Positions 7,535 through 37,806 of a DNA stretch of 64,000 nucleotides are shown here, piece after piece. Location of the stretch: NCBI GenBank assembly GCA_012727955.1, contig JAAYGB010000047.1, positions 1-64,000 of the forward strand. Direction: 5' to 3'. How positions within the stretch are numbered: the first letter of the stretch is position 1; every line of letters begins with the position of its first letter. The notes beneath the pieces were generated by a model. The model was given only the letters and a program-made list of their open reading frames with translations. It was not told where the DNA came from and did no database searches. Position numbers and translations under genes: made by a program. This DNA comes from Bacillota bacterium. GTDB lineage: Bacteria > Bacillota > Limnochordia > DTU087 > JAAYGB01.

Positions 7535-8730
7535 TGGCGGTGCAAATGGAAACAAAAATGGTGGCATTAACGGGCAACGAGGCCGCAGCCCAGGCGATGC
7601 GACAAATCTGCCCCGACGTGGTAGCCGCCTATCCGATCACCCCACAGACGGAGATCGTTCAGATCTTCTCGACGTTTGTGGCCGATGGGTTGATCCCGAC
7701 GGAATTCGTCCCGGTAGAGAGCGAACACAGCGCCCTGAGCGCCACCGTGGGCGCAGCAGCCGCGGGCGCCCGGGCGATGACCGCAACATCGGCCAATGGG
7801 TTGGCCTTCATGTGGGAGGTCTTGTACATCGCCTCGGGAATGCGACTGCCCATCGTAATGCCCGTAGTCAATCGGGCTTTGAGTGGGCCGATTAACATTC
7901 ACTGTGATCACAGCGACACCATGGGAGCCCGGGATTCCGGCTGGCTGCAGCTGTACAGCGAGACGGCCCAGGAAATGTACGACAATCTCATCCAGGCGGT
8001 GCGCATCGCCGAGCATGCCGATACCCGCCTGCCGGTGATGGTGATGATGGATGGCTTTATTACCAGCCACGGAATGGAAAACGTCGAGTTACTAAAAGAC
8101 GCCCAGGTCCGGGAGTTCATCGGAGAGTACCACCTGGAGCATGCCCTGTTGGATGTGGACAACCCCAGCACCTGGGGACCCTTGGACCTGCAGGACTTCT
8201 ATTTTGAACACAAGCGGCAGCAGGCCGAGGCGGTGAAGATAGCCAGGAACGTGATCGCCGAAGTGGCCAAGGAATACGCTGACTTAAGTGGTCGCCATTA
8301 CGGGTTCTTGGAGGAATACCGTATGGAGGACGCGGAGGTGGCCATTTTGGTCATCGGGTCCACTGCAGGAACTGCCAAGTATGTGGTCAATCAGCTGCGG
8401 GAGCAGGGAGTCAAGGCTGGGGTCATCAAGCTCAGGGTTTTCCGGCCCTTCCCGGTACAGGAGCTAACCAATGCCGTAGCCAATCTCAAAGCCCTCGCGG
8501 TGATGGACCGGGCGGAAAGCTTCTCGGGACAGGGAGGCCCGCTGTTTACCGAAGCACGGGCTGCCTTGTATGCCGCACCCCACCGTCCCCTGATGCTCAA
8601 CTATATCTACGGCCTTGGAGGTCGGGACATCACGCCAGAGATGATCGCGTCGGTGTATCAGGACCTTCAGGATGCGGCCCAATCGGGGCAAGTCCAGGAT
8701 CCCTATCGGTTCCTGGGAGTTCGGGACTAA
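7534..8730 (+). CDS. porA: Pyruvate:ferredoxin oxidoreductase, alpha subunit
   Basis: The 398-aa alpha subunit carries the pyrimidine-binding half of the ThDP site. AAYPITPQTEIVQIFS and VPVESEHSALSATVGAAAAGAR near the N terminus are POR alpha signatures. The C-terminal half is the transketolase C-like domain II (AILVIGSTAGTAKYVVNQL). The sequence resembles pyruvate-type rather than 2-oxoglutarate or 2-oxoisovalerate enzymes, but substrate is inferred from similarity only. The ATG at 7534 shares two bases with the porD stop. Confidence 0.92.
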   Translation: MAVQMETKMVALTGNEAAAQAMRQICPDVVAAYPITPQTEIVQIFSTFVADGLIPTEFVPVESEHSALSATVGAAAAGARAMTATSANGLAFMWEVLYIASGMRLPIVMPVVNRALSGPINIHCDHSDTMGARDSGWLQLYSETAQEMYDNLIQAVRIAEHADTRLPVMVMMDGFITSHGMENVELLKDAQVREFIGEYHLEHALLDVDNPSTWGPLDLQDFYFEHKRQQAEAVKIARNVIAEVAKEYADLSGRHYGFLEEYRMEDAEVAILVIGSTAGTAKYVVNQLREQGVKAGVIKLRVFRPFPVQELTNAVANLKALAVMDRAESFSGQGGPLFTEARAALYAAPHRPLMLNYIYGLGGRDITPEMIASVYQDLQDAAQSGQVQDPYRFLGVRD

Positions 8731-8745
8731 CAGGAGGTGACAAAC

Positions 8746-9687
8746 ATGGCGACATTAAAGGATTTGGCGAAGAAAGAAGTGCTCATCACCGGAGGCCACC
8801 GGGCTTGCTCTGGGTGTGGCTTTCCCATTGCCATTAAGATGATTCTTTCCCAAGTGGATACACCGGTAGTGGTGGGCTGCGCCACAGGCTGTATGGAGGT
8901 GACTACCACCGTCTATCCCTACACTGCTTGGAAGCCCAACTTCATTCACAATGCCTTTGAAAACGTAGCGGCAACCATCAGTGGGGTGGAAACTGCCTAT
9001 CGCAGTCTAAAAAAGCAGGGCAAGATCGATAAGGAAATCAAGTTCATTGCCTTTGGCGGCGATGGCGGTACCTATGACATCGGCTTGCAGTCCCTGTCGG
9101 GAGCGATGGAACGGGGCCATAACATGGTCTATGTCTGCTATGACAATAACGCCTATATGAACACCGGAGTGCAGCGATCCAGTGCTACCCCCTTGGGGAC
9201 CAATACCTCCACGACACCCGCGGGAACCCAGTCCACGGGAAAACCTCAGTCTCGGAAGGACTTGACCGCGATTATGGCGGCCCATAACATTCCCTACGTA
9301 GCCCAGGCAGCCATCAGTCATTGGAACGATCTGGTCAGAAAGGCGGAGAAGGCCTTTACCGTGGAGGGACCGGCCTTTCTCAACGTCCTTACCTCCTGTC
9401 GATTGGGATGGGCCATTCCCCCAGAGGATGCCATCGATGCCGTTGACGGTGGAGTCCAGTCAAATTTCTGGCCGTTGTATGAAGTGGAGAATGGGGAATG
9501 GAAGCTGACCTTCCAGCCGCGAAAACCGCTGCCGGTAGCCGATTGGTTGAAACAGCAGGGGCGGTTTAAGCATCTCTTTCGGGGAGACCACTCCGAAGTC
9601 TTGGAGGCCATCCAAAGGGATGTCGACGAGAAATTCGCTCAGCTGTGCCGCCGCTGCGGTGTCGAGCCAAAGACCGCGGTACACTAA
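8746..9687 (+). CDS. porB: Pyruvate:ferredoxin oxidoreductase, beta subunit
   Basis: The 313-aa beta subunit binds ThDP-Mg and a [4Fe-4S] cluster. The N-terminal CSGCGFPIAIK gives the first cluster cysteines. GDGGTYDIGLQSLSGAMERG through DNNAYMNTG is the ThDP/Mg motif (GDGG...NN). The frame is open from GTG 8737, but that codon lies inside the ribosome site CAGGAGGTG (8731-8739), so ATG 8746 is the start. It is last in the operon. A bidirectional terminator lies at 9782-9828. Confidence 0.93.
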   Translation: MATLKDLAKKEVLITGGHRACSGCGFPIAIKMILSQVDTPVVVGCATGCMEVTTTVYPYTAWKPNFIHNAFENVAATISGVETAYRSLKKQGKIDKEIKFIAFGGDGGTYDIGLQSLSGAMERGHNMVYVCYDNNAYMNTGVQRSSATPLGTNTSTTPAGTQSTGKPQSRKDLTAIMAAHNIPYVAQAAISHWNDLVRKAEKAFTVEGPAFLNVLTSCRLGWAIPPEDAIDAVDGGVQSNFWPLYEVENGEWKLTFQPRKPLPVADWLKQQGRFKHLFRGDHSEVLEAIQRDVDEKFAQLCRRCGVEPKTAVH

Positions 9688-10809: not shown

Positions 10810-12195
10810 ATGACACAGCGAGACCCTCGCGAGGACGATGGTGGTGGGGTTGTGACGAAGCGACGTCGGGGCAAATGGTCACAGATGCAAAGGGCGATGC
10901 GCTACAGCATCTGGGACGGAATGGCAGCCAACATGAGTGAAAACCTCTTTGGACCCTTCCTGTCCCTGTTTGCGCTGGAATTGGGTGCGACGAAGGCTCA
11001 GATTGGTCTGTTAAGTTCATTACCTAGTTTGTTAGGCAATATTGCTCAGATCCCGGCCGCGATGCTTACTGAACGCTTGGGCCGTCGGAAGATATTGACG
11101 GTATGGTCGGCGATTGGAGCCCGGTTGTGTCTTTTGGCGACGGTGTTTATTCCCTTCTTGTTTGGCAGTGAGTTTAATCTGATAGGTCTGTTCATTTTTC
11201 TTGTGGCAATGCGGGGCTTTGTCAACAGCCTGGGAGTGCCGGCTTGGACATCGATCATGGCTGATATCAGCCCGGTGGAGTCACGGGGTGCCTTTTTCTC
11301 CACTCGCAACATTCTCTCAGGGATGACGGGGTTTGCCGGTACCCTGTTGGCGGGGTGGATTATCCGAACCTATGGTTTCCCGGGAGGATATCAACGGTCC
11401 TTTTTCCTAGCCTTTCTCACCGGGGTACTTGCTATTTACTTCTTTGCCCGGATTCCCGTTCAGGAACCGGGGCCAAAAAAGGCAAGGATAGCTGAGGAAG
11501 CAGCAGAAACTGAAGAGCCGGCAGAACCAAAACTAACCCTTAGGCAGAAGTGGAACAGAGCTCTGGATGCCTTTTCACAACACGCTAATTTCCGGAAGTA
11601 TTGTTTCACCTCGATCTTCTGGCAATTCTCCGTTTCCCTCGGCGGTCCCATGGTAGCCGTTCACTTTGCCGAGAACCTCGGTGGTACCCCGGCGCAATGG
11701 AGTATCGCCAGCTCTGCTGGGTTGGTGGCCGGTATCCTCTTTCAGAAGTACTGGGGACGGTTAGCCGATCGCTTCGGACCTAAGAACGTGATGAAATTCG
11801 CTGGAATCCCCGCTGCGGCATTGCCGTGGATATGGTTGGCGATACCCATCCCTCAGTTAGGGTTTATTGCTAGTTTTATTGGCCAGTTTGGCTGGAGTGG
11901 GTATAACCTAGCGGCCTTCAACTTGATCCTGGAGTTGACTCCCGATGCCAGCCGCTCCACCTATGTGGGCGTGTACAACACGATGGCGGGAATCAGTGCC
12001 GCTATCAGCCCAGTGATCGGAGGAGTGTTGGCGGAGCACATCGGGATGTACTGGGTGTTGTTTCTTTCCGGTCTTTTGCGGTTTGTAGCTTTCCTGGTGT
12101 TTGTGTTCAATGTCGACGATACTCGGTCTACACCGATGCGTTGGTCCGACATGTTTCCGGATGCCTTGAGACCGAGGCAAAAACTCGCCGGGTAA
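10810..12195 (+). CDS. Major facilitator superfamily transporter
   Basis: A 461-aa inner-membrane protein with about 12 predicted hydrophobic helices after a basic cytoplasmic N terminus of ~30 residues. The loop 2-3 signature appears as ERLGRRKILTVWSAIGAR, and a second copy as GRLADRFGPKNVMKF in the second half. A charged central loop (about 215-260, rich in Glu/Ala/Lys) separates the two six-helix bundles. The substrate cannot be told from sequence. Resemblance to multidrug/sugar-efflux-like MFS proteins is only general. GGGGGAATGACAG precedes the ATG. The serS T-box promoter begins only a few bases after its stop. Confidence 0.85.
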   Translation: MTQRDPREDDGGGVVTKRRRGKWSQMQRAMRYSIWDGMAANMSENLFGPFLSLFALELGATKAQIGLLSSLPSLLGNIAQIPAAMLTERLGRRKILTVWSAIGARLCLLATVFIPFLFGSEFNLIGLFIFLVAMRGFVNSLGVPAWTSIMADISPVESRGAFFSTRNILSGMTGFAGTLLAGWIIRTYGFPGGYQRSFFLAFLTGVLAIYFFARIPVQEPGPKKARIAEEAAETEEPAEPKLTLRQKWNRALDAFSQHANFRKYCFTSIFWQFSVSLGGPMVAVHFAENLGGTPAQWSIASSAGLVAGILFQKYWGRLADRFGPKNVMKFAGIPAAALPWIWLAIPIPQLGFIASFIGQFGWSGYNLAAFNLILELTPDASRSTYVGVYNTMAGISAAISPVIGGVLAEHIGMYWVLFLSGLLRFVAFLVFVFNVDDTRSTPMRWSDMFPDALRPRQKLAG

Positions 12196-12199
12196 ACGG

Positions 12200-12228
12200 T
12201 AGACAATTAGGTTATAATGCCATATAAT
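12200..12228 (+). promoter_or_regulatory. Sigma-A-type promoter of the serS T-box leader
   Basis: TAGACA (12200-12205), 17-bp spacer, TATAAT (12223-12228). Transcription would start near 12235, just before the T-box stem I. Confidence 0.75.
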
Positions 12229-12235
12229 AGACGCA

Positions 12236-12484
12236 AATCCGATGCAGGGGAATAGATGGAAGTCCGGTGCCCTCAGAGAGTCGGCGGCAGGTGTGAGCCG
12301 ACCACCGCTTCATCGATCCACCCCGAAGGGAGACACCGATGAGGTGGTCCGGGTCAGCCCGTTATCGCGACAAAGGGACGTTACCGTCTACTCGTAGGAT
12401 CAGAAGAGCTAGGAGTTAGAGGTAGCGTAATTTGGGTGGCACCGCGGATAACTCTCCGTCCCATAGGGACCGGGGAGTTTTTTT
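12236..12484 (+). promoter_or_regulatory. T-box leader (serine) with terminator/antiterminator
   Basis: This is a T-box riboswitch controlling serS by sensing uncharged tRNA-Ser. The T-box itself is TGGGTGGCACCGCGG at 12433-12447. The intrinsic terminator is the stem 12450-12462/12466-12479 followed by a run of T. Stem I can be folded: 12255-12269 pairs with 12303-12314, which places GATCCA (12315-12320) in the specifier loop with the codon TCC (Ser) at 12317-12319 followed by A. AGAGAG and the GGTG apical element are also present. Uncharged tRNA-Ser with anticodon GGA would favour the antiterminator and allow serS transcription. The specifier assignment is my own folding by eye. Confidence 0.9.
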
Positions 12485-12535
12485 ATTTCCGAATTTGAGG
12501 ATGAGACAAAGTACCTACAGGAAGAGGTGGAAGAC

Positions 12536-13810
12536 ATGCTAGACCTAAGATGGATTCGCGAGAACGTTGCTGAGGTCAAAGAGGCCATGGCTAAGAGGGG
12601 AACCGACGTCTCCGTCGATGGGCTCCTGCAAGCCGATGAGCGCCGCAGAGCACTGCTTAGGGAGACTGAGGAACTAAAGGCGCGACGCAACACCGTCTCT
12701 CAGGAAGTGGCGAAGAGAAAAAAGGCCAGGGAAGATGCCGATGACATCATTGCAGAGATGCGCGAGGTATCGGACCGGATTAAGACCCTAGATCAAGAGT
12801 TGAAGGAAGTTGAACAGGAAATCTCTGATACCCTGTTGTTGATTCCCAACATTCCCCACCCCTCGGTTCCCGAAGGTAGCGATGATAGCGATAACCTGGA
12901 AATTACCCGCTGGGGAGAGCCTCGCCAGTTCTCCTTTGAACCTAAGGCCCACTGGGATTTGGGAGTAGATCTCGATGGGATCGATTTTGAACGGGCCGGG
13001 AAAGTAACGGGTGCTCGCTTTGCTTTCTTGAAACAGGGCATCGCTCGGCTGGAACGGGCCTTGGCCAACTTTATGCTCAACCTACACGTCGATAAGCATG
13101 GTTATCAGGAGGTGCAGCCGCCCTACATCGTCAACAGTGCCAGCATGACCGGGACCGGTCAGCTGCCGAAGTTTGCCGAAGATTCCTTCCGGCTCGAGGG
13201 CACCGATTATTGGCTGATTCCCACCTCAGAGGTACCGGTCACAAACATCTATCGAGGCGAGATTCTCGATGGGGAACAGCTTCCCATCTACTTTACCGCA
13301 TTGTCGGCTTGCTTCCGGTCGGAGGCAGGATCCCACGGTCGGGATACCCGGGGCCTAATCCGGATGCACCAGTTCAATAAGGTAGAACTGGTCAAATTTG
13401 TGCGGCCGGAAACCTCCTATGATGAACTGGAGAAGCTAACGGCCGATGCCCGGGAAGTCCTGGAGCTATTGGGTCTGCCCTATCGAGTAGTGAAGCTGTG
13501 TACCGGTGACCTGGGCTTTAGTAGTGCCATGACCTATGACATAGAGGTCTGGATGCCCAGTTATGGTCGATATGTTGAGATCTCAAGCTGCAGCAACTTC
13601 GAGGACTACCAGGCCCGTCGGGCCAATATTCGGTTCCGTCCAGAGCCGGGGGCAAAACCGGAGTTTGTCCATACCCTCAATGGCTCGGGTCTAGCCGTTG
13701 GCCGAACCCTAGCCGCGGTGATGGAAAACTACCAGCTACCCGATGGCAGCATCGAGGTACCTGAAGTCTTACGCCCCTACATGGGTGGAATGGAGATTAT
13801 TAAGAGATAG
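12536..13810 (+). CDS. serS: Seryl-tRNA synthetase
   Basis: A 424-aa class II synthetase that charges tRNA-Ser (and tRNA-Sec where present). The N-terminal arm (about residues 30-100) is a long antiparallel coiled coil that grips the tRNA variable arm. Motif 2 is [21 protein letters not shown] and motif 3 is [22 protein letters not shown] 12536 follows AGGAAGAGGTGG and matches the family start [10 protein letters not shown]. The GTG nine bases earlier is less likely. It is controlled by the T-box leader just upstream, and a tRNA-Ser gene follows. Confidence 0.95.
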
Positions 13811-26246: not shown

Positions 26247-26359
26247 TTATCTTGGGTCGGAGAATGACAACCTTCAAGGACTGCAATTTCCTGCCGATAC
26301 AATAGATTAGATAGTACGTGGAATTTACTAGGATACTCAATACAGTGGAGGCATTTGTC

Positions 26360-27157
26360 TTGATCGATATTCATTGTCACATATTACCGGCATTAGATGA
26401 TGGAGCGGAAAATTGGGATATCGCGGTGCAGATGGCTAGAATTGCTGCCGCTGACGGAGTAACCGATATTATTGCGACCCCACACATGGTACCTGAAAGT
26501 AAGTTTGTCCCCGAACCCCATCGGGTGAGGGAGTTAACCGATGAGTTGAATCAAAGACTTGACAGTCAAGGGATTCCGGTGACGATACATCCAGGTATGG
26601 AGGTGTACTTAACGCCGGAGACTCCCGATCTGCTGGAGGCGGGCCGTTTGTTGACGCTGGCCGATAGCGAATATCTGCTGGTGGAGCTGCCGGCCAATTC
26701 GGTACCACACTATGTGGATCAAGTCCTTTTCGAAATAATGCTTCAAGGCGTGAGACCGATTCTGGCTCATGTTGAGCGGAATCGTTCCTTGGCTACCGAT
26801 CATTTCCGGCTTCAAGAGTTACTGAACCGAGGTAACTTAGCACAGTTGAATGCCAGCAGCCTGATGGGCGGGCAAGGGCGTAAGGCTCAGTCCGTAGCCA
26901 AGGATCTGGTAAGAAGGGGATTGATCCAGTTCATCGCCAGTGATGGACATTCGCTTGGTCGGCGTAAACCTGTAATAGGAGATGCGGTAGAAGTACTGGG
27001 TAGGAAATTAGGTTCGGAAAGGGCTTACCAGCTAAGCATCGGAAACCCTCGGTCTGTGCTAGCAAATGAGTCGGTGACGCTATCGGACGGGGAAGCCGTC
27101 GATAGGTGGAATATCCTTGGACGTGTGAGAAGGGTAGTTCAGGACATTTTCCAGTAG
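26360..27157 (+). CDS. Protein-tyrosine phosphatase, CpsB/CapC/YwqE type (PHP family)
   Basis: A metal-dependent phosphatase (265 aa) expected to dephosphorylate the BY-kinase encoded upstream. The PHP-fold metal ligands begin at the very N terminus (DIHCHILPALDDGA) and continue as ATPHMVP, PGMEVYLTPE, AHVERN and ASDGHSLGRRKP. The frame is open from 26318, but GGAGG at 26347-26351 lies 8 nt before TTG 26360, which gives the usual family N terminus. The acting site is cytoplasmic. Confidence 0.9.
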   Translation: MIDIHCHILPALDDGAENWDIAVQMARIAAADGVTDIIATPHMVPESKFVPEPHRVRELTDELNQRLDSQGIPVTIHPGMEVYLTPETPDLLEAGRLLTLADSEYLLVELPANSVPHYVDQVLFEIMLQGVRPILAHVERNRSLATDHFRLQELLNRGNLAQLNASSLMGGQGRKAQSVAKDLVRRGLIQFIASDGHSLGRRKPVIGDAVEVLGRKLGSERAYQLSIGNPRSVLANESVTLSDGEAVDRWNILGRVRRVVQDIFQ

Positions 27158-29528: not shown

Positions 29529-29546
29529 TTGTGATACTTTTCACTA
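29529..29546 (+). promoter_or_regulatory. Rex-like operator upstream of the hydrogenase operon
   Basis: TTGTGA-TACTTT-TCACTA differs from the Rex consensus TTGTGA-N6-TCACAA at one position. It lies 16 bp before the first gene of the hydrogenase operon, which also holds NADH-linked hydC/hydB. Rex represses fermentation and hydrogenase genes when NADH/NAD is low. No rex gene is in the window. A TATGAT box (29495-29500) and TTGAGA (29514-29519) are nearby possible promoter elements. Confidence 0.55.
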
Positions 29547-29561: not shown

Positions 29562-29921
29562 GTGCGTCTGAAGGATATTTGCGAAATTATATCCGCTGAA
29601 GTGTTAACTCCAACTCTAGATCTAAATGTAGAAGTCAGTTCCGTTTGCGGCTGTGATCTAATGAGCGATGTGTTGGCCTACACTAAAGCCAATACTCTCC
29701 TCTTAACCGGTTTAGCTTCACTGCAGGTGATTCGCACTGCAGAGATGGCAGATTTAATCGGAATTGTATTTGTACGGGGCAAGAGGCCCGAGCCTGAGGT
29801 GATTGAGCTGGCTATCCAGAACAAATTGCCCCTGCTTACTACACACTATCCGCTGTATGAAACTGCTGGACTATTGTTTCAGGTGGGACTGCCCGGTTGT
29901 TACCAACTTGAGGAGGTTTAG
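29562..29921 (+). CDS. DRTGG domain protein (hydrogenase-associated), copy 1
   Basis: A 119-aa stand-alone DRTGG-like domain (MRLKDICEIISAEVL ... SVCGCDLMSDVLAYTK ... LLTTHYPLYETAGLL). Such proteins recur next to [FeFe]-hydrogenase operons in Clostridia, and their role is unknown. They may bind a nucleotide or act as regulators with the neighbouring HATPase protein. It is first gene of a run of ten that are overlapping or spaced by a few bases. A related copy lies at 31771. The GTG start follows GGGAGTGGTA. Confidence 0.8.
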   Translation: MRLKDICEIISAEVLTPTLDLNVEVSSVCGCDLMSDVLAYTKANTLLLTGLASLQVIRTAEMADLIGIVFVRGKRPEPEVIELAIQNKLPLLTTHYPLYETAGLLFQVGLPGCYQLEEV

Positions 29922-29924
29922 CCG

Positions 29925-30377
29925 ATGGACCTATCCCCTCCTCCATCTGAAAAGGTGTTGCTGAGTCAGTCCTTTGACGTGGCTGCTCAGGACTTTGTCC
30001 GTGCCGGAGAAGCCTCTAGTCGCATCAAGAGGATTTTGCAGCAGTTGGGAATCGATAGCAAGGTGGTAAGGCGATCGGCCATTGTCACCTACGAGGCGGA
30101 GATGAACATCGTCATCCATTCCCACGGAGGAGGAATTACCCTGACCGTCACCCCCACCGATGTGATTCTCCAATGTATCGATCGGGGTCCCGGCATAGAG
30201 AATATCCCGTTGGCTATGCAGGAGGGTTACTCGACGGCTTCGGAGGAAGTGCGGGAGATGGGTTTTGGTGCCGGCATGGGGTTGCCTAATATCAAGCGCA
30301 GTGCCGATGAGTTTCGGATTGAGTCCAGCCCTTCGGGTACTGCTCTGTTTGTTCGCATCTCACACAGGAGCGGGTGA
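29925..30377 (+). CDS. Stand-alone HATPase (anti-sigma factor/RsbW-like) protein 1
   Basis: A 150-aa GHKL ATP-binding protein without a His-kinase dimerisation domain, close to SpoIIAB/RsbW proteins. The N-box is YEAEMNIVIH, G1 is CIDRGPGIEN and G2 GFGAGMGLPNI, so ATP binding should be intact. RsbW-type proteins phosphorylate an anti-anti-sigma partner, but none is encoded nearby. A regulatory role in hydrogenase expression is inference from position. It overlaps the following HydS-type gene by 4 nt (GTGA). Confidence 0.82.
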   Translation: MDLSPPPSEKVLLSQSFDVAAQDFVRAGEASSRIKRILQQLGIDSKVVRRSAIVTYEAEMNIVIHSHGGGITLTVTPTDVILQCIDRGPGIENIPLAMQEGYSTASEEVREMGFGAGMGLPNIKRSADEFRIESSPSGTALFVRISHRSG

Positions 30378-31780
30378 ATGCCGCTATGCTACCCCTATTC
30401 CATTCCGTTGCCCTGGAACGACAGCGATGCAAAGGTTGTACAAACTGCATCAAGGGTTGCCCCACTGAGGCGATTCGAGTCAGAGCCGGTAAGGCTGTGA
30501 TTTTGGCCGAGAAGTGCATTGATTGTGGGGAGTGCATTCGTACCTGTCCCAACCATGCCAAAGTCGCGGTTGCCGACGAGATGTCCTGTCTGAAAAAATT
30601 CACCAAGACTATTGCCTTGCCTGCCCCATCCCTCTTTGGACAATTTCGAGGAAACTCCGTGAGCGTGGAGCAAATCTGCCAGGCAATCAAACTAGCAGGC
30701 TTCGATGAAGTGTTCCTCGTTGCCGAGGCTGCGGATCAAATCAGCGTGGCCACTTGGTTATACGCCGAAGAACATCGCCTCCGCCCCTTGATTTCCTCAT
30801 CCTGCCCGGCAATCGTGCAGCTGATCCAAGTCCGATTCTCCGAACTAATTCCCAATCTAATCAAACTGGAATCCCCCGTGGAAGTGGCGGCCAAGCTGGC
30901 CAAAGAGGAGGTCTGTCGCCTTTATGACCTACCTCCGGAGGAAGTAGGTGCCGTGTTCTTGTCTCCCTGTGCTGCTAAAGTCACCGAACTTAAGGGACCG
31001 GAGGGACAACCGGGAGCCTATGTCGATGCGGTTATTCCCATCAACGTTGTTTATCCTCATCTGGTGAGAAACCTGGGGCAGGTGATTGATCCCGACTTAA
31101 GAATAACTGCCTCCTTTGCCGGTTTTTCCTGGGCAAGGCAGGGCGGGGAAGAGGAATTCATGCAGGATTTTGTCCATGTCTCAGTATCGGGAATTCATCA
31201 AGCCCTGGATGTGCTGGCCGATGTGGAGATGGGGAAGTTTGCCGGAGTAGATTTTCTCGAGGTTCAGGCCTGTCCCGGGGGGTGCGTAGGAGGACCCTTG
31301 ACGGTGGTGAACGCCACCTTAGCCAAAACCCAGCTGGAAGGGGTACTATCCCGCTCCCGCATCAGGGAAAGGCCCCAGGAAGAAGACCTCCATAGGATTC
31401 AACGGCGTTACCGGAAGGGCTTATATCATCTTACCAGGGAGATCCAACCCCGTCCGGCGATGCAGCTAGATGAAGATTTGACCCAAGCCGCCAGGAAAAT
31501 GACAGTGATGGAACGGGTGGGTGCCTCTTTACCGGGACTAGACTGCGGCTCCTGTGGTTCCCCCAGCTGTGCCGCTTTGGCCGAGGATATCGCTCAGGGC
31601 TTGGCTACGGAGTCCGACTGTATCTTCAAGCTAAAAGAGGGGATTCAGGAACTAGCGGAGGAGCTCTTGGTTTTAATCAAACAGGTGCCATCTTCTATGC
31701 CACCGGAAACAGCGGCGGCGATGGAGGGTGGAGTCATTAATCACAAAACTGGCGATGGGAGTGAAGGTCCATGCAACTGA
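30374..31780 (+). CDS. HydS-type [FeFe]-hydrogenase homologue (putative sensor)
   Basis: A 468-aa iron-sulfur protein. Two [4Fe-4S] motifs (CKGCTNCIKGCP, CIDCGECIRTCP) come first, then a hydrogenase large-subunit domain (about 85-370), then a C-terminal 4Fe-4S domain (DCGSCGSPSCAALAEDIAQG...C). The H-cluster loops are altered: SSSCPAIV for TSCCPxW, SPCAAKVTE for MPCxxKxxE, and VQACPGGCVGG for ExMxCxxGC. The four cluster cysteines appear kept, while the proton-relay Cys is Ser and the conserved Met residues are lost. This fits sensory/uncharacterised group C-D hydrogenases rather than a fast catalyst. The GTG start overlaps the previous stop. Confidence 0.85.
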   Translation: MNAAMLPLFHSVALERQRCKGCTNCIKGCPTEAIRVRAGKAVILAEKCIDCGECIRTCPNHAKVAVADEMSCLKKFTKTIALPAPSLFGQFRGNSVSVEQICQAIKLAGFDEVFLVAEAADQISVATWLYAEEHRLRPLISSSCPAIVQLIQVRFSELIPNLIKLESPVEVAAKLAKEEVCRLYDLPPEEVGAVFLSPCAAKVTELKGPEGQPGAYVDAVIPINVVYPHLVRNLGQVIDPDLRITASFAGFSWARQGGEEEFMQDFVHVSVSGIHQALDVLADVEMGKFAGVDFLEVQACPGGCVGGPLTVVNATLAKTQLEGVLSRSRIRERPQEEDLHRIQRRYRKGLYHLTREIQPRPAMQLDEDLTQAARKMTVMERVGASLPGLDCGSCGSPSCAALAEDIAQGLATESDCIFKLKEGIQELAEELLVLIKQVPSSMPPETAAAMEGGVINHKTGDGSEGPCN

Positions 31781-32118
31781 AGCAAATACTGGAGGAGTTA
31801 CCCTTAATCGAAGTTAGCACCATCGATCCCCATCGGGAGGTCACCGGCGGCTATGCTTCCGACCTACTTAGTGATGTCATCGCTAAGTCCGGCGAGGGAT
31901 CGATTTGGGTGACCAATCAGGCCCATGCCAATGTGGCCGCGGTGGCGGTATTGACGGAAGCAGCCGCGGTGATCGTCGCCGGAGGTATCGAGCCGGACCC
32001 AGATCTGGTGGCCAAGGCCAAGGATAATGCCGTTAATCTGCTTCGTACCGATTTGCCCTGTTTTGAGGTGGTGGGCCGGTTGTATCAGTTGGGGATTCAG
32101 GGCGTGGTAAAGGAATGA
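31771..32118 (+). CDS. DRTGG domain protein (hydrogenase-associated), copy 2
   Basis: A 115-aa DRTGG-like protein (REVTGGYASDLLSDVIAKSG ... NLLRTDLPCFEVVGRLYQLG). It shares the core pattern of the 29562 copy but keeps a GGYASDLLSDV motif closer to the family consensus. It overlaps the HydS-type gene by 10 nt and the PHP gene by 4 nt (ATGA), so translation is coupled. No biochemical role is known. Confidence 0.82.
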   Translation: MQLKQILEELPLIEVSTIDPHREVTGGYASDLLSDVIAKSGEGSIWVTNQAHANVAAVAVLTEAAAVIVAGGIEPDPDLVAKAKDNAVNLLRTDLPCFEVVGRLYQLGIQGVVKE

Positions 32119-32882
32119 AGACCTTCGTCGGGGATATCCATGTGCACACAGGGCTTTCCCCCTGCGCTGCCAAGGACATGACCCCCAACAACATCATCAG
32201 GATGGCCAAACTGGAGAATCGAGACTTTCTGGTGATCTGCGACCACCACTCTGTAGGCAACGTCCAGGCATGTCAGGAGGTGGGAGCGGAGTACGGGCTC
32301 ACCGTACTGCCCGGCATGGAGCTGGAGACCCGGGAGGGAGTCCACCTACTGACTATCTTTCCTAGTTTGGAGGTGGCCCTGGCCCAACAGCGTTGGGTCC
32401 ATAGTAGCCTGGCACCGATTAAGAATCGCCGGGAGGTTTTTGGAGAGCAGTTGATCTTTGACTCTAGGGATCGAATCATTGGCAGTGAGCCCCAGCTGTT
32501 GTCCCAAGGTCTGCCGCATTCCCTGAGCGCGGTGACGGAGCAGATGCAGGCAGAGGGCGCCCTGGTTATCGCCGCCCATGTGGAGCGGCGCAGCTCCGGC
32601 TTGCTTGGTCAGCTGGGTCTGGTTCCGGCGGATTTTGCCCCCGATGGTTGGGAGATTGGACTCGGAGAAAACCTATCGGCGGTCCAGGACCGCTATCATC
32701 TAGCCCAGGCCAAGGGCTGGGTATTTGGCTCCGATGCCCACTACCTGCAGGATTTGGTTACTCCCTGGGTGACGGTGCTGCAGGCTGAAGGAATTACCTT
32801 TGCAGAACTGGCGAAGGCGCTGCAGCAAAATCAGGGGCGTAAGACAGAGATTCGATGTCTAGAACATAAAATAAGTGAGTGA
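32115..32882 (+). CDS. PHP-domain phosphoesterase (hydrogenase-associated)
   Basis: A 255-aa metal-dependent PHP-fold protein. The metal-binding motifs are DIHVHTGLSPC, CDHHSVGN, PGMELETREG.H, AAHVERR and GSDAHYLQD. PHP proteins cleave phosphoesters, from tyrosine-phosphate to nucleoside phosphates. The substrate here is unknown. Its fixed position beside DRTGG and HATPase genes suggests it removes a phosphate or nucleotide signal in the same pathway (inference). Confidence 0.85.
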   Translation: MKTFVGDIHVHTGLSPCAAKDMTPNNIIRMAKLENRDFLVICDHHSVGNVQACQEVGAEYGLTVLPGMELETREGVHLLTIFPSLEVALAQQRWVHSSLAPIKNRREVFGEQLIFDSRDRIIGSEPQLLSQGLPHSLSAVTEQMQAEGALVIAAHVERRSSGLLGQLGLVPADFAPDGWEIGLGENLSAVQDRYHLAQAKGWVFGSDAHYLQDLVTPWVTVLQAEGITFAELAKALQQNQGRKTEIRCLEHKISE

Positions 32883-32889
32883 CAAACCG

Positions 32890-33444
32890 ATGCGGGAGCT
32901 ATCCCTTCACATTCTAGATATTGCCCAAAACTCCATCGCCGCCAAAGCCTCACTACTGGAAATCTTGGTGGAGGAAAGTCCCACTCAAGACCTGTTAACT
33001 ATTCAAATCACCGATAACGGTAAGGGGATGCCGCCGCAGCTGGTGGCCACCGTTACCGACCCCTTTACTACATCCCGTACTACCCGGAAAGTGGGTCTGG
33101 GTCTGCCCCTGTTTAAGGCGGCGGCGGAGGCCTGTGGTGGATTCTTTCACATCTGGTCCCAAGAGGAGCGGGGAACCCAGGTAAAGGCTGCCTTCCAGTT
33201 CAGTCATATTGATCGAGCGCCCTTGGGAGATATGGCAAGCACCATCACTTCCTTGGTTGCTCTTAATCCCGAGATCGACATCCTGTATATCCACAAATAC
33301 GAGAACAGGCAGGTGGTGTTGGACACTAGGGAGATCAAGTCAGTGTTGGAGGTGGATACTCTGACCCATCCTTCGGTCCTGGCTTGGATGAGGGAGTATC
33401 TTCAAGGGGGACTTGAAACTATCAAAGGGGAGGACGACCGATGA
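32890..33444 (+). CDS. Stand-alone HATPase (histidine-kinase-like ATP-binding) protein 2
   Basis: GHKL ATP-binding domain with an N-box LDIAQNSIAAKA, G1 ITDNGKGMP and G2 KVGLGLPL. It resembles the catalytic part of sensor kinases (or MutL-like domains) but has no His-phosphotransfer domain. The C-terminal ~70 residues are a separate small domain (HPSVLAWMREYLQGG at the end). ATG 32890 (184 aa) follows the PHP stop by 7 nt. A GTG at 32875 in the same frame would add 5 residues and overlap the PHP gene. The stop overlaps the next gene (ATGA). Confidence 0.8.
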   Translation: MRELSLHILDIAQNSIAAKASLLEILVEESPTQDLLTIQITDNGKGMPPQLVATVTDPFTTSRTTRKVGLGLPLFKAAAEACGGFFHIWSQEERGTQVKAAFQFSHIDRAPLGDMASTITSLVALNPEIDILYIHKYENRQVVLDTREIKSVLEVDTLTHPSVLAWMREYLQGGLETIKGEDDR

Positions 33445-33821
33445 AATCATTGGAGGATCTCAAGAAACTGCGGGATCAAGTCAGAGCTTCGGTAAGTGTC
33501 CGGGAAGATTTGGGCCAGGTACGGATAGTCGTGGGAATGGGTACCTGTGGGATTGCGGCAGGAGCCCGAGATGTAATGAGCGCCTTAATGGATGAAATCA
33601 GTAAGCGGAATCTAACCAACGTCATTGTCAGCCAAACGGGGTGTGTCGGCATGTGTGACAAGGAGCCCTTAGTTGACGTCATGGTGCCGGGAATGCCCAC
33701 CGTTACCTATGGCCACATGGACGGCAACAAGATGCGCCGGGTACTGGCCAGTCATGTGGTAAACGGTCAGATCATCGGCGAGTACGTAGTCGCCACCAAG
33801 GATGGCTCCAGTGTAGGGTAG
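33441..33821 (+). CDS. Thioredoxin-like [2Fe-2S] ferredoxin
   Basis: A 126-aa protein of the thioredoxin-like ferredoxin family (related to the HydB N-terminal domain and to NuoE). The cluster cysteines are in VGMGTCGIAAGARDV (about residue 38; only one Cys in this segment) and TGCVGMCDKEP (two Cys). The usual C-x(4)-C spacing of the first pair is reduced to a single Cys, so binding may use another residue. It is often found directly before hydC in Clostridia and may carry electrons to or from the hydrogenase complex. Confidence 0.82.
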   Translation: MKSLEDLKKLRDQVRASVSVREDLGQVRIVVGMGTCGIAAGARDVMSALMDEISKRNLTNVIVSQTGCVGMCDKEPLVDVMVPGMPTVTYGHMDGNKMRRVLASHVVNGQIIGEYVVATKDGSSVG

Positions 33822-33835
33822 AGGAGGTTACAACC

Positions 33836-34330
33836 GTGGCCATGTCAGCCCAGTCCATTGACTGGAAGTCCGAAGTAAAGGAGATCGTGGAGCGACACGG
33901 GGGCAAGCCGGAGTACTTACTAGACATTCTCCACGAGGTGCAGGCAAAGGTTAACTACTTGCCCCAAGAAGCTTTGCTGGAAGTGGCCAGAGAGCTGGAC
34001 ATCCCGTTGAGCAAAGTACATGGAGTAGCCACCTTCTACTCCATGTACTCCATCCAGCCTCGTGGTCAGTTCATTATCCGGGTTTGTGAAAGCGCCCCCT
34101 GTCACGTGATGGGGTGCGACGCCGTGATTGCTGCCTTGGAGTCGGCTGCCGGTGCCAGAATGGGGGAAACCACCTCCGATGGATTGTTCACCTTGGAATA
34201 CACCAGCTGTATCGGTGTCTGTGGGGTGGCCCCGGCGATCATGATCAATGATCGGGTCTATGGGAACCTGACTCCAGAATCGGTGGTCGAGATTATTGCC
34301 GAATACCGAGCCCGGGAGAGGGGGGAGTAG
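33836..34330 (+). CDS. hydC: Hydrogenase subunit HydC (NuoE-like, [2Fe-2S])
   Basis: The 164-aa gamma subunit of a trimeric, NADH/ferredoxin-linked [FeFe] hydrogenase. The N-terminal helical domain (LLDILHEVQAKVNYLPQEAL, HGVATFYSMYS) precedes a thioredoxin-like fold with ligands in CESAPCHVMGCD and CIGVCGVAPA. The GTG start at 33836 has GAGGAGGT 6 nt upstream. hydB starts one base after its stop. Confidence 0.92.
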   Translation: MAMSAQSIDWKSEVKEIVERHGGKPEYLLDILHEVQAKVNYLPQEALLEVARELDIPLSKVHGVATFYSMYSIQPRGQFIIRVCESAPCHVMGCDAVIAALESAAGARMGETTSDGLFTLEYTSCIGVCGVAPAIMINDRVYGNLTPESVVEIIAEYRARERGE

Positions 34331-34331
34331 G

Positions 34332-35960
34332 GTGCAGTTCTTTCGCAGTCACGTTTTGGTCTGTGGAGGCGTCAATTGCTCGTTGCAGGGCTCGAGGACC
34401 ATCCGGGACCTGCTGGTCGATGCCATCGCTGAAGCGGGACTAAGCCAAGAGATCAAGGTGGTGGAGACGGGATGCTTTGGCCTTTGTGAACAGGGTCCGA
34501 TGATGGTCGTCTACCCCGAATCCGTCCACTATTGTCGGGTGCAGCCCAGCGATATTCCGGAAATCGTCGATGCCCATCTGAAGAAGGGCAGAGTAGTTTC
34601 CCGGCTCTTGTATCGGGGCACCGATCCCAGTCAAGAAGTGCAAACCCTGACAGAGACGGACTTCTACGGTAAACAACAACGGGTGGTGCTTCGCAACTGT
34701 GGCCTGATTGATCCGGAGTCCATCGATGAGTATATCGCCCGGGGTGGCTATGAAGTCTTAGGTAGAGTATTGACCTCGCTGACTCCCCAGCAAGTAATTA
34801 AGGAAGTGCAAGACTCGGGACTGCGGGGTCGAGGTGGGGCAGGATTTCCTACGGGACTGAAGTGGAGTTTCACCGCCCAGGCAGAGGCCCAGCAGAAATA
34901 CCTCATTTGCAACGCCGATGAAGGGGAGCCGGGAACCTTTAAGGACCGACTGATTCTTGAGGGTGATCCCCATTCCGTCATCGAGGGGATGATTATCGCC
35001 GGCTATGCCATCGGAGCTACCCAGGGATACATCTACTCCCGGGGTGAGTATGGTCTTTCCATTCAGCGTCTGAGAAAGGGTATCGAGCATGCGAGAAAGG
35101 TGGGACTCTTAGGGAGAAACATCTTCGACAGCGGCTTTGATTTTGATATTGAAGTTCGTATCGGCGCCGGTGCCTATGTTTGTGGTGAAGAAACGGCATT
35201 GATCAACTCCATGGAGGGCAAGCGGGGTGAACCCCGGTTCAAACCGCCCTATCCCACTACCGCAGGCCTGTGGGGCAAACCCACCTGCGTCAATAACGTT
35301 GAGACCTTGGCCAATATCGTGCCCATCATGGAAAGGGGAGCCCAATGGTATCGTTCCATCGGTACGGAGAAATGCCCCGGCACCAAGGTCTTTACCCTAA
35401 CGGGAAATATTGTCAATGAAGGCTTAATTGAGGTTCCCATGGGAATTACCCTGCGGGAGATTATCTATGACATCGGCGGTGGAATTCCCGATGGCCGGGA
35501 ATTCAAGGCGGCCCAGACCGGGGGCACCTCCGGCGGCTTTTTGTCCGCTGCCTTCTTGGACGTCCCCATGGATATTGAATCCGTGGCCGAAGCAGGATCG
35601 GCCCTGGGCTCGGGGGCATTGCTCATCATCGATGACACCCATTGTATCGTCGATGTGGTGCGAAGCTGTGCTCGCTTTTTCCGGCATGAATCCTGTGGAC
35701 AGTGTACTCCCTGTCGCGAGGGTACCCAACGTTTGCTGGAGTTTGTCGATGCCGTCGCCGAGGGCAGGGCAACGGGCGCGGATGTTCGCCTCTTCCGGCG
35801 ACTGGCCCAGACCATGGAGGACAGCAGCCTCTGTGCGCTGGGGCAGACAGCACCCTTCCCCATCCTGACAGCGATGCGCTTTTTCCCCGAGGACTTTGAG
35901 GCCCATATCGTCCACAAGAAGTGTCTGGCATCCGATGCCAAGACGGGCGCCACAGCATAG
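34332..35960 (+). CDS. hydB: Hydrogenase subunit HydB (NuoF-like, FMN/NADH/[4Fe-4S]) lacking the C-terminal ferredoxin domain
   Basis: The beta subunit (542 aa) oxidises or reduces NAD(H) through FMN. An N-terminal thioredoxin-like [2Fe-2S] domain (VCGGVNCSLQGSRT ... TGCFGLCEQGPM) is followed by the NuoF core (GRGGAGFPTGLKWSF for NADH/FMN; AGAYVCGEETALINSMEG), an SLBB segment, and the cluster motif ESCGQCTPCREGTQRLLE. HydB of bifurcating enzymes normally ends with two more [4Fe-4S] clusters (about 600-630 aa). Here the protein stops after HIVHKKCLASDAKTG with none. GTG 34332 with GGGGGAG upstream is the start; the frame is open from 34296. Confidence 0.92.
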   Translation: MQFFRSHVLVCGGVNCSLQGSRTIRDLLVDAIAEAGLSQEIKVVETGCFGLCEQGPMMVVYPESVHYCRVQPSDIPEIVDAHLKKGRVVSRLLYRGTDPSQEVQTLTETDFYGKQQRVVLRNCGLIDPESIDEYIARGGYEVLGRVLTSLTPQQVIKEVQDSGLRGRGGAGFPTGLKWSFTAQAEAQQKYLICNADEGEPGTFKDRLILEGDPHSVIEGMIIAGYAIGATQGYIYSRGEYGLSIQRLRKGIEHARKVGLLGRNIFDSGFDFDIEVRIGAGAYVCGEETALINSMEGKRGEPRFKPPYPTTAGLWGKPTCVNNVETLANIVPIMERGAQWYRSIGTEKCPGTKVFTLTGNIVNEGLIEVPMGITLREIIYDIGGGIPDGREFKAAQTGGTSGGFLSAAFLDVPMDIESVAEAGSALGSGALLIIDDTHCIVDVVRSCARFFRHESCGQCTPCREGTQRLLEFVDAVAEGRATGADVRLFRRLAQTMEDSSLCALGQTAPFPILTAMRFFPEDFEAHIVHKKCLASDAKTGATA

Positions 35961-35970
35961 AGAGGAGGGA

Positions 35971-37743
35971 ATGCCAGTGGCTGATATCACTGTAACTGTC
36001 GATGGCAAGAGGGTCTCAGTTCCCGTGGGAAGTACCGTCCTTGAGGCAGCTCAGGCTGCCGGGATTGATATCCCTACCCTGTGCCATCATCCCGATCAGC
36101 AGGTCAAGGCGGTGTGTCGGATCTGTGTAGTGGAGATAGAGGGGATCCGCAGTCTAGCGGCTGCCTGTGCCTTTCCCGCCAGTGACGGAATGATGGTGAG
36201 AACCAATACCCCTCGGGTGCGCACCGCCCGGCGAACAATCTTGGAATTGATGCTAGCCCATCACCCCCAGGATTGTCTCCAGTGCCATCGGAACCTAGAC
36301 TGCGAACTGCAGGATTTGGCCCACCGCTTGGGGGTTCGGGAAATTGCCTTCCCACCGGTGCTGCGGGGTCTTCCCAGCGATGACTCCAATCCAGCCATTG
36401 TCCGGGAACCGGACAAGTGTATTAACTGCCGCCGCTGCGTCGAGGCCTGTCACGAAACCCAGAGTGTGGGGATCCTAGAAGCGGTGAATCGGGGCTTTGA
36501 CACCTACGTTGCCTCAGCGGCAGGGCTGCCCTTAGAGGAACTGTCCTGTGTATACTGCGGGCAGTGTGTGGTGGCCTGCCCCACCGGTGCCCTCCATGAG
36601 CAGGATGATACCGCCAAGGTATGGGAGGCCTTGGCCGATCCTAACCTCCATGTGGTGGTTCAGACGGCACCGGCGATTCGAGCTTCCCTGGGTGAGGAGT
36701 TTGACCTGCCCGTGGGAACCCGGGTCACCAAGAAAGTGACCGCGGCTTTGCGGCGGTTAGGCTTTGACCGAGTTTTCGATACCGATTTCACCGCTGACTT
36801 GACCATTATCGAAGAAGGCAATGAGCTTCTAGAGCGGATTAGAAATCAGGGAGCTTTGCCGCTGTTGACTTCCTGTAGTCCGGGATGGATCAAGTTCATC
36901 GAAAGCTACTACCCCGAGCTCTTGGCCCATGTCTCCACCTGCAAATCACCCCAGCAGATGTTTGGCGCCCTGGCCAAGACCTACTACGCTGAAAAGAGTG
37001 GTATCGATCCCAAGGACATCTTCGTAGTCTCCATCATGCCCTGTACCGCCAAGAAGTTTGAGGCCAATCGTCCGGAGATGAGCGCCAGCGGCTATCCCGA
37101 CGTGGATGTGGTTTTGACCACCCGGGAGTTGGCCAGGATGCTGCGGGAAGCTGGGATAGACCTGGCAACGCTGCCCGATGAAGACTACGATGAACCCCTG
37201 GGTATTTCCACCGGAGCCGGGGCCATCTTTGGTGCTACCGGTGGGGTAATGGAGGCGGCACTGCGGACTGTCTACGAACTGGTAACGGGAACGGAATTAG
37301 AAGATCTGGAGTTTACTGCAGTGCGGGGTCTGGAGGGAATCAAAGAGGCCGCGGTAAAACTGCCGGTGGCCGAGGCTGCCATGGCCGGTGAGAATGGGCA
37401 AAGCACGGAGCTGGAGATTAAAGTGGCGGTAGCCCATGGCTTAGCCAATGCCAGAACCCTAATGGAGGCCATCGGCTCCGGCAAAGCCGATTATCACTTT
37501 GTGGAAATCATGTCCTGCCCCGGTGGATGCATCGGGGGCGGTGGACAGCCGATTCCCAGCAACTCAGAAATCAAAGAGAAACGAATTGCCGCCATCTATG
37601 AGGAAGACCGGGGATTGCCCCTGCGTAAGTCCCATGAAAACCCTGCGGTGAAGGCTCTTTATGCAGAGTTCTTAGGCAGCCCCTTGGGGGAGAAGTCCCA
37701 TCAGCTGCTCCACACTCACTACACACCCCGTCAGCGGACCTAG
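35971..37743 (+). CDS. hydA: [FeFe] hydrogenase catalytic subunit HydA (NADH/ferredoxin-linked type)
   Basis: The 590-aa catalytic subunit that evolves or takes up H2. The order is [2Fe-2S] (CHHPDQQVKAVCRIC), His-Cys3 cluster (HHPQDCLQCHRNLDC), two [4Fe-4S] (CINCRRCVEACHE, CVYCGQCVVACP), then the H-cluster domain. Loop L1 is TSCSPGW, L2 is IMPCTAKKFE and L3 is EIMSCPGGCIGGGGQP. The TSCSPGW form (Ser after Cys) and STCKSPQQ are, as I recall, frequent in multimeric HndD/HydA-type enzymes. ATG 35971 has AGAGGAGG 3-9 nt upstream; the frame is open earlier. It is last in the operon, with a terminator 19 nt later. With PorGDAB and HydBC it is expected to dispose of electrons from fermentation. Confidence 0.95.
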   Translation: MPVADITVTVDGKRVSVPVGSTVLEAAQAAGIDIPTLCHHPDQQVKAVCRICVVEIEGIRSLAAACAFPASDGMMVRTNTPRVRTARRTILELMLAHHPQDCLQCHRNLDCELQDLAHRLGVREIAFPPVLRGLPSDDSNPAIVREPDKCINCRRCVEACHETQSVGILEAVNRGFDTYVASAAGLPLEELSCVYCGQCVVACPTGALHEQDDTAKVWEALADPNLHVVVQTAPAIRASLGEEFDLPVGTRVTKKVTAALRRLGFDRVFDTDFTADLTIIEEGNELLERIRNQGALPLLTSCSPGWIKFIESYYPELLAHVSTCKSPQQMFGALAKTYYAEKSGIDPKDIFVVSIMPCTAKKFEANRPEMSASGYPDVDVVLTTRELARMLREAGIDLATLPDEDYDEPLGISTGAGAIFGATGGVMEAALRTVYELVTGTELEDLEFTAVRGLEGIKEAAVKLPVAEAAMAGENGQSTELEIKVAVAHGLANARTLMEAIGSGKADYHFVEIMSCPGGCIGGGGQPIPSNSEIKEKRIAAIYEEDRGLPLRKSHENPAVKALYAEFLGSPLGEKSHQLLHTHYTPRQRT

Positions 37744-37761
37744 GGTGCACAATAATATAGA

Positions 37762-37806
37762 AGAAGGCCGGTCGAAGCAGAGAATTTGGCCGGTCTTCTC
37801 CTTTTT
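37762..37806 (+). terminator. Terminator of the hydrogenase operon
   Basis: AGAAGGCCGGTC (37762-37773) pairs with GGCCGGTCTTCT (37788-37799) allowing two G-U pairs, and CCTTTTTAG follows. Confidence 0.8.

Follow-up and report, generated by a model that had tools for sequence, protein, structure and literature searches.

In the window, by which we mean the whole 64,000-nucleotide stretch of DNA that was analysed, seven small genes are followed by hydCBA in one tightly coupled operon (29562-37743, + strand) whose junctions are overlaps or gaps of at most 14 bp (Table 1). An earlier sequence-only reading had proposed this arrangement, and all seven small open reading frames were found on the + strand at the coordinates it gave. 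The real start of hydB probably lies downstream of 34296, and the hydA frame is open from 35896, the methionine at 35971 being its inferred start. A Rex-operator-like palindrome precedes DRTGG1; at one mismatch this pattern is expected by chance 1.19 times per 64 kb. Candidate Rex sites matching 13 or 14 of the 14 positions occur upstream of the module at 8 other loci as well as in the window (whose own copy in this count is L007), against a shuffled frequency of 0.4%.

Table 1. Genes and other features of the operon in the window.
Feature	Position	Strand	Evidence
Rex-operator-like palindrome TTGTGATACTTTTCACTA	29529..29546	+	directly upstream of DRTGG1; 1 mismatch to TTGTNA-N6-TNACAA
DRTGG1	29562..29921	+	Pfam PF07085 E=1.2e-8; alignment A2; AF2 model pLDDT 94
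HATP1	29925..30377	+	PF13581/PF02518 (HATPase_c_2/HATPase_c); TIGR01925 E=1.4e-8; alignment A3; SpoIIAB structures E=1.3e-11
HydS	30374..31780	+	Pfam Fe_hyd_lg_C + FeS (PF04060) + 2x4Fe-4S; alignments
DRTGG2	31771..32118	+	PF07085 weak, 25.5 bits vs 25.2 cut-off; alignment A4
PHP-family metallophosphoesterase	32115..32882	+	alignment A5; PDB profile matches
HATP2 (GHKL ATPase)	32875..33444	+	PF02518 (HATPase_c) E=4e-14; alignment A6; AF2 model pLDDT 92
TRXfd (TRX-like [2Fe-2S]-type protein)	33441..33821	+	alignment A7; PDB matches
hydC (NuoE-like)	33836..34330	+	PF01257 E=1e-51
hydB (NuoF-like)	34296..35960	+	PF01512/PF10589
hydA, group A6 bifurcating [FeFe] hydrogenase	35971..37743	+	NF040763 910 bits, above cut-off
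Putative intrinsic terminator, operon end	37762..37799	+	15-bp stem, T-rich tail

DRTGG1 and DRTGG2 are both stand-alone DRTGG domains, with D32, S35 and T49 invariant in the former and D31, S34, W46 and T48 in the latter. The serine, part of a DLxS motif, is invariant in both families and is replaced by Gln in AF1212; in the AF2 model of DRTGG1, D32 and S35 sit at the N-terminus of a helix. Analysis of this model using Foldseek placed AF1212 and the DRTGG domain of CBS-PPase nearest, and a STAS-like fold was discarded, as the folds returned were AF1212, CBS-PPase, the HprK N-domain and MurE-type folds, with no STAS among them. HATP1 is a GHKL ATPase of the SpoIIAB type, presumably resembling RsbT as well, in which the E57xxxN61, D86xG88xG90 and GFGAGxG boxes are invariant (E57 and N61 in all 34 aligned sequences); its best PDB matches are SpoIIAB structures. 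ATPase domains fill both HATP1 and HATP2, leaving no space for a DHp/His domain, in keeping with the earlier description of two ATPases without His domains. With the DHp phospho-His absent and a receiver not a widely conserved neighbour, a classical two-component system was rejected.

HydS is, by its domain layout and residue motifs, a putatively sensory [FeFe] hydrogenase of group D (M2e, TamHydS type). It consists of two N-terminal [4Fe-4S] motifs, an H-domain and a C-terminal Cx2Cx4Cx16C motif, and no PAS domain is found among its Pfam matches. The H-cluster loops had been called sensor-like from the letters alone, and they do carry altered residues at the positions equivalent to C299 (S143), M353 (S197) and M497 (Q298); the four cluster cysteines, C144, C199, C300 and C304, are kept.

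PHP and TRXfd score below their Pfam cut-offs (17 vs 26.4 bits and 23.3 vs 24.8 bits, respectively), and their identities were secured by the invariant motifs seen when each family was aligned, together with PDB profile matches. All metal-ligand motifs of a PHP phosphoesterase, as the gene had first been named, are present in PHP (HxH, DH, E, H, H and SDxH), with H9, H11, D43, H44, E69, H77, H155, D207 and H209 invariant or nearly so, and its profile matches are TM0559, EndoQ and PHP phosphoesterases. HATP2 couples its ATPase to a unique C-terminal alpha/beta domain at about residues 113-184; no known fold could be assigned to the latter, as good structural matches cover the ATPase part only. 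TRXfd retains three of the four canonical cysteines expected of a TRX-like [2Fe-2S] ferredoxin, the first ligand cysteine being missing throughout the family and all cysteines at two loci (L048, L083). Its PDB matches are the N-terminal domains of HydB/NfnB chains, and it is missing from stand-alone modules (L118, L120, L128, L130, L131). TRXfd was accordingly rejected as a component of the switch and is most likely an enzyme subunit (HydD/HndB-like). The seven-gene module of the sequence-only reading is thereby reduced to a functional set of six, from DRTGG1 to HATP2.

This set appears to be almost always found together in anaerobic bacteria. In a phylum sample of 249 genomes, taken as raw genome counts in which kinship is ignored, DRTGG was found in 104, HATPase-2 in 99, and HydS and PHP in 92 each; the latter three never occur without DRTGG, and all four (DRTGG, HATP2, PHP and HydS) are present in 87. 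Co-conservation, set beforehand as a refuting test, thus holds and is far above chance. The order DRTGG1-HATP1-HydS-DRTGG2-PHP is contiguous in 59 of the 65 loci with flanks; elsewhere only HATP1-HydS is adjacent (L069, L075, L091, L102, L113) or HydS stands alone (L070), with two DRTGG-type matches still present in each of these genomes. The adjoining enzyme varies by locus between HydABC, formate dehydrogenase, Rnf and Nfn (as HydBC+Nfn), and sets with no neighbouring enzyme also occur. The early view of a hydrogenase-linked regulatory module therefore stands as to a regulatory set beside a hydrogenase, and not as to the link itself, since the set is also found alone, beside these other enzymes or with a CBS sensor.

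Nearly every neighbouring pair of the module is joined by some gene fusion: DRTGG1-HATP1 (L040, L041, L240-L243, L245), HATP1-HydS (L136), HydS-DRTGG2 (L233, L234) and PHP-HATP2 (L235-L239). In versions lacking HydS, HATP1 is instead fused to a tandem CBS pair (CBS2-HATP1; L118-L120, L123), suggesting that the hydrogen/redox sensor can be replaced by one of the adenine-nucleotide type; elsewhere, HydS-type sensors share a chain with MCP or sigma-54 activator outputs. Together with co-conservation, the fusions make it probable that the six proteins belong to a single signalling complex, in which HydS (or CBS) is the input and the SpoIIAB-like ATPase the proposed hub. Comparison across genomes thus shows the six-part set, the order of interaction predicted by the fusions, the interchange of HydS and CBS, and intact active sites.

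The reading that we prefer, and to which we give about an even chance, is of a six-gene phosphorylation-based signalling complex. HydS would provide the input by reading the H2/ferredoxin redox state with its Fe-S chain and, in those versions that have one, its H-cluster; through contact with HATP1 it would set the ATP-bound or kinase state of this ATPase, which would most likely phosphorylate one or both DRTGG partners at the invariant DLxS serine. PHP, acting as a unit with HATP2, would most likely remove the phosphate, and this unit would relay the state to the adjoining Fd/NAD(H)-coupled enzyme, HydABC here and FDH, Rnf or Nfn elsewhere. We infer the phosphorylation, the acceptor serine, the direction of PHP action and the enzyme as target. 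DRTGG is, to our knowledge, no known phosphoacceptor, and D32, S35 and T49 could line a ligand pocket instead, which counts against phosphorylation.

The same complex may operate with no protein phosphorylation at all, HATP1 and HATP2 being GHKL ATP-driven clamps, DRTGG binding an adenine nucleotide as in the CBS-DRTGG pyrophosphatase, and PHP hydrolysing a nucleotide signal. This alternative is less likely. In its favour, HydS is replaceable by CBS, the DRTGG1 fold is nearest to AF1212 and the CBS-DRTGG regulatory region, HATP2 has similarity to MutL/TopoVI in addition to histidine kinases, and the nearest NCBIfam and PDB relatives of PHP, nucleotide phosphoesterases and EndoQ among them, act on nucleotides and DNA, which also counts against the preferred reading. 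Opposed to it are the closeness of HATP1 to SpoIIAB, a protein-serine kinase, and the invariance of a subfamily-specific serine in both DRTGG families.

A further question is what HydS senses. The K358-equivalent lysine holds the [2Fe] subcluster. Five genomes that have neither A6 HydA nor HydEFG have lost it and retain all Fe-S cysteines, including the four H-site cysteines, suggesting that the core HydS signal is redox and that H2 is one form of it. That HydS here senses only the Fe-S redox state, its [2Fe] site being vestigial, is rather improbable, as the lysine is kept in 63/63 genomes with HydEFG and in 20/20 with HydA and no HydEFG, and the window genome itself carries HydE, HydF and HydG; TamHydS of the same group also turns over H2 (PMC8163306). 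The absence of HydEFG is likewise weakened as proof of a HydS without H-cluster because 20 of the 28 HydS-containing genomes lacking HydE, HydF and HydG retain A6 HydA, all 20 with the HydS lysine and with motifs intact in the members inspected.

Control of hydrogenase transcription by HATP1 as an anti-sigma kinase in partner-switching is improbable. HATP1 does have the GHKL kinase E-xxx-N box, matches the SpoIIAB and RsbW profiles and has anti-sigma F (TIGR01925) as its sole NCBIfam match; however, no STAS, receiver, sigma factor or PP2C phosphatase is widely conserved as a module neighbour across 80 loci, and Rex sites with neighbouring rex genes explain transcription more simply. No further gene cluster is common to more than 10 of these 80 loci, and with no such partner conserved nearby, no precedent names the output of the module. 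A role of these genes in the maturation or assembly of HydABC or of the HydS H-cluster, as adjacency to hydABC and the occurrence of hydE, hydF or hydG near the module in some genomes could suggest, is very improbable because their distribution does not match: the set is missing in 75/169 A6-HydA and 65/139 HydF genomes, 28 genomes have it with HydS and lack HydE, HydF and HydG, and at least 7 have HydS and PHP without A6 HydA.

The fusions and phyletic pattern name partners and an order for group D HydS signalling, which makes direct tests possible and gives a proposal, itself testable, for how 'sensory' hydrogenases relay their signal. If true, one widespread module would tune the main electron valves (HydABC, formate dehydrogenase, Rnf, Nfn) in anaerobes living by fermentation or syntrophy, which would matter for biohydrogen, biofuel yield and gut H2.

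Among known systems, TamHydS from Thermoanaerobacter mathranii, a putatively sensory group D (M2e) [FeFe] hydrogenase (PMC8163306, PMC13104023), shares with HydS its domain layout, the C-terminal Cx2Cx4Cx16C cluster, the lack of PAS, the altered C299/M353/M497 positions, and a location upstream of a trimeric bifurcating hydrogenase beside a histidine-kinase-like ATPase. The full module is present in T. wiegelii (L059). The TamHydS paper names no neighbours other than the HK-like ATPase at its flank and an AraC gene, and how the signal is passed on is left open there (PMC8163306); its available text does not describe the set of six, the fusions, the exchange of HydS for CBS or the branch lacking HydEFG. 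A literature search did not find HydS together with DRTGG, the sole overlap of hydrogenase with 'DRTGG domain' being unrelated. Group C HydS (T. maritima TmHydS; HfsB of Thermoanaerobacterium) is likewise a sensor of the [FeFe]-hydrogenase type that lies close to a catalytic hydrogenase. It differs in its PAS domain, which the HydS of the window lacks, and, in the case of hfs, in being partnered by a serine phosphatase (PMC10055695, PMC11837493). The anti-sigma and stressosome kinases SpoIIAB, RsbW and RsbT have GHKL kinase boxes in common with HATP1; here the partner is DRTGG and the sensor an Fe-S protein, with no conserved STAS, sigma or PP2C. The CBS-DRTGG region of CBS-pyrophosphatase (3l2b/3l31) has the DRTGG fold and pairs it with CBS, but there the two domains control a pyrophosphatase within a single chain, whereas the module has DRTGG as a separate protein and CBS joined to the ATPase. 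As in Hnd/HydABC, hydCBA comes with a TRX-ferredoxin subunit; the hydrogenase is ordinary, and the switch is extra and missing from many HydABC genomes. We tentatively suggest a separate class of bacterial signal transduction, distinct from two-component systems and from sigma partner-switching: a modular complex whose swappable sensor (Fe-S/H-cluster HydS or a CBS pair) would drive a SpoIIAB-like ATPase. This ATPase would modify stand-alone DRTGG proteins, a PHP-GHKL unit would counteract it, and together they would control how active ferredoxin/NAD-coupled enzymes are throughout the anaerobes.

Seven open reading frames had been read from sequence alone as preceding hydCBA in one operon, and all of them exist in the order given: DRTGG1, HATP1 (a SpoIIAB-like GHKL ATPase), HydS (a group D sensory [FeFe] hydrogenase), DRTGG2, PHP, HATP2 (a GHKL ATPase with its own C-terminal domain) and TRXfd (the TRX-ferredoxin gene), on one strand and leading directly into hydCBA, with each junction an overlap or a gap of at most 14 bp. 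Pfam domain assignments are consistent with these identities; for DRTGG2, PHP and TRXfd the Pfam scores are close to or under the cut-offs, and their identities are based on family alignments. Elsewhere in the window lies a gene for another PHP-type protein, which on inspection resembles the CpsB/YwqE tyrosine phosphatases and precedes a Wzz-like chain-length gene.

Coordinates of features in the window and in fetched loci
Source	Feature	Positions	Placement
Window	second PHP-type protein	26318-27157	outside the module
Window	Rex-like palindrome	29529-29546	immediately 5' of DRTGG1
Window	A6 HydA	35971-37743	
Window	terminator-like hairpin	37762-37799	3' of hydA
L066	HydS-like fusion (sigma-54)	11017-13356	
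L075	HydS-like fusion (MCP)	11395-13308	
L133	RseC/MucC-like gene (PF04246)	9110-9577	between HATP2 and TRXfd
L134	protein resembling the L133 one	7805-8269	

A HydS profile search of genome contigs gave 80 loci from Clostridia, other Bacillota, deltaproteobacterial-type bins and Spirochaetes, and DRTGG1-HATP1-HydS-DRTGG2-PHP is contiguous in 59 of the 65 with sufficient flank. Across 249 whole genomes sampled over the phylum, DRTGG1-type genes occur in 104, HATP2 in 99, and HydS and PHP in 92 each, HATP1 presence being based on the loci read. The proposed co-conservation is upheld, as every genome with HydS, HATP2 or PHP also has DRTGG and all four are present in 87 genomes (none of the four in 145); Fisher P values for co-occurrence, in which phylogeny is ignored, are ~1e-52 to 1e-64, but HydS is spread over 62 genera and DRTGG over 72. 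The HATP1-HydS pair alone is adjacent in five loci (L069, L075, L091, L102, L113) and HydS is solitary in L070; because two DRTGG-type matches persist in these genomes, the co-occurrence looks like functional coupling and not mere operon hitch-hiking.

That the genes are maturation factors, the reading that had been set against a regulatory role, is made very unlikely by distribution: the module is absent from 75 of 169 genomes with A6 HydA (the bifurcating hydrogenase subunit) and from 65 of 139 with HydF, and 28 of the 92 HydS-bearing genomes have no over-cut-off match to HydE, HydF or HydG. In the window's genome all three maturases are on contig C28. Twenty HydS-bearing genomes have A6 HydA over cut-off with none of the maturases over cut-off (among them G001, G016, G030, G071, G079, G083, G101, G121, G149, G155, G171, G186, G188, G223, G241, G271, G278, G287 and others); G149 and G287 are single-contig genomes, and the H-cluster motifs are intact in those read. 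This leaves two options, maturases of strongly divergent sequence or a different route of maturation. The L1 loop of A6 HydA in the window and in L137-L152 is mostly TSCSPGW, with Ser at the usual cluster-ligand position, versus the classical TSCCPxW.

HydABC is the commonest neighbour of the module. Other loci place it beside HydC-HATP2-TRXfd-HydB and a molybdopterin formate dehydrogenase (L127, L129), the rnf operon (L119; rnfC nearby in L118) or HydBC with Rex and Nfn-like genes (L133), the formate dehydrogenase, Rnf and Nfn labels being assigned by reading sequence rather than by family scans; L128, L130 and L131 have no neighbouring enzyme. These stand-alone modules end with HATP2 and lack TRXfd, so the earlier grouping of both ATPases and TRXfd into one regulatory module holds for HATP2, which is part of the switch, and probably fails for TRXfd, which most likely belongs to the enzyme. 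In L048 and L083 no cluster cysteine remains in TRXfd (GMGTSGIAAGAR...TGEKGLASQEP), thus a TRX-like protein can persist without an Fe-S cluster. Fourteen of the loci fetched include a rex gene. Boxes that score 13 or 14 of 14 as Rex-like sites lie 5' of the module in the window and eight other loci, whereas shuffling gives a rate of 0.4% per region (~92 regions); Rex control of hydrogenase operons has been reported for C. thermocellum (PMC8457756).

Natural fusions join DRTGG1 to HATP1 (seven loci), HATP1 to HydS (L136), HydS to DRTGG2 (L233, L234) and PHP to HATP2 (five genomes of one family), which combine into a likely contact order of DRTGG1-HATP1-HydS-DRTGG2 plus PHP-HATP2. In the HydS-less loci L118, L119, L120 and L123, a tandem CBS pair is N-terminal on HATP1 (Pfam E ~1e-30); together with the fusion chain, this points to HATP1 as the hub of the module and to an interchangeable sensor. 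A HydS-like Fe-hydrogenase sensor also occurs in one chain with other outputs, an MCP signalling domain in L075 and a sigma-54 activator carrying a Fis-type HTH in L066, which independently marks the HydS architecture as an input domain.

Window HydS has all group D sequence features tested, and the four H-site cysteines are invariant among 91 HydS proteins. In the hydrogenase CpI, K358 contacts the [2Fe] cyanide. The equivalent Lys of HydS is retained in all 63 genomes with HydEFG and all 20 with A6 HydA only, and is replaced (by Q, Q, Q, R and E) in five of the eight with neither (P=1.2e-6; 1.4e-5 when G086, with its possibly partial HydA, is left out), these five representing three families (f21, f42, f43). 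Because the Lys is lost while the cysteines are invariant, HydS apparently cannot do without its Fe-S part but can do without its H2-binding part.

Comparison establishes a six-part unit with a likely contact order. HATP1, whose closest solved structure is SpoIIAB, has intact ATPase boxes (E57, N61, D86, G88, G90), the PHP metal ligands are intact, and a DLxS motif is invariant and common to both DRTGG families, with S35 starting helix 34-40 in a confident AF2 model of DRTGG1; the archaeal DRTGG protein AF1212 has Met and Gln at the positions of D32 and S35. In the preferred reading HATP1, controlled by HydS, would phosphorylate the DLxS serine, and PHP with HATP2 would reverse this and signal to the adjoining enzyme. 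The main rival is a switch driven by a nucleotide ligand instead of serine phosphorylation, which is favored by the replacement of HydS by CBS, the analogy with CBS-DRTGG pyrophosphatase and the action of PHP relatives on nucleotides.

In the work on TamHydS, the group D HydS of Thermoanaerobacter mathranii, only an HK-like ATPase and an AraC gene are noted as flanking, and the question of how the signal is transduced is posed (PMC8163306); a proteomic study of C. thermocellum refers broadly to kinases and phosphatases encoded upstream (PMC3492117). HydS combined with DRTGG was not found in the open-access papers searched; subscription literature was mostly outside the search, and an earlier description is possible. 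The module counts as a variant of hydrogenase-based sensing, itself known, and there is a fair chance that it forms a signalling class of its own.
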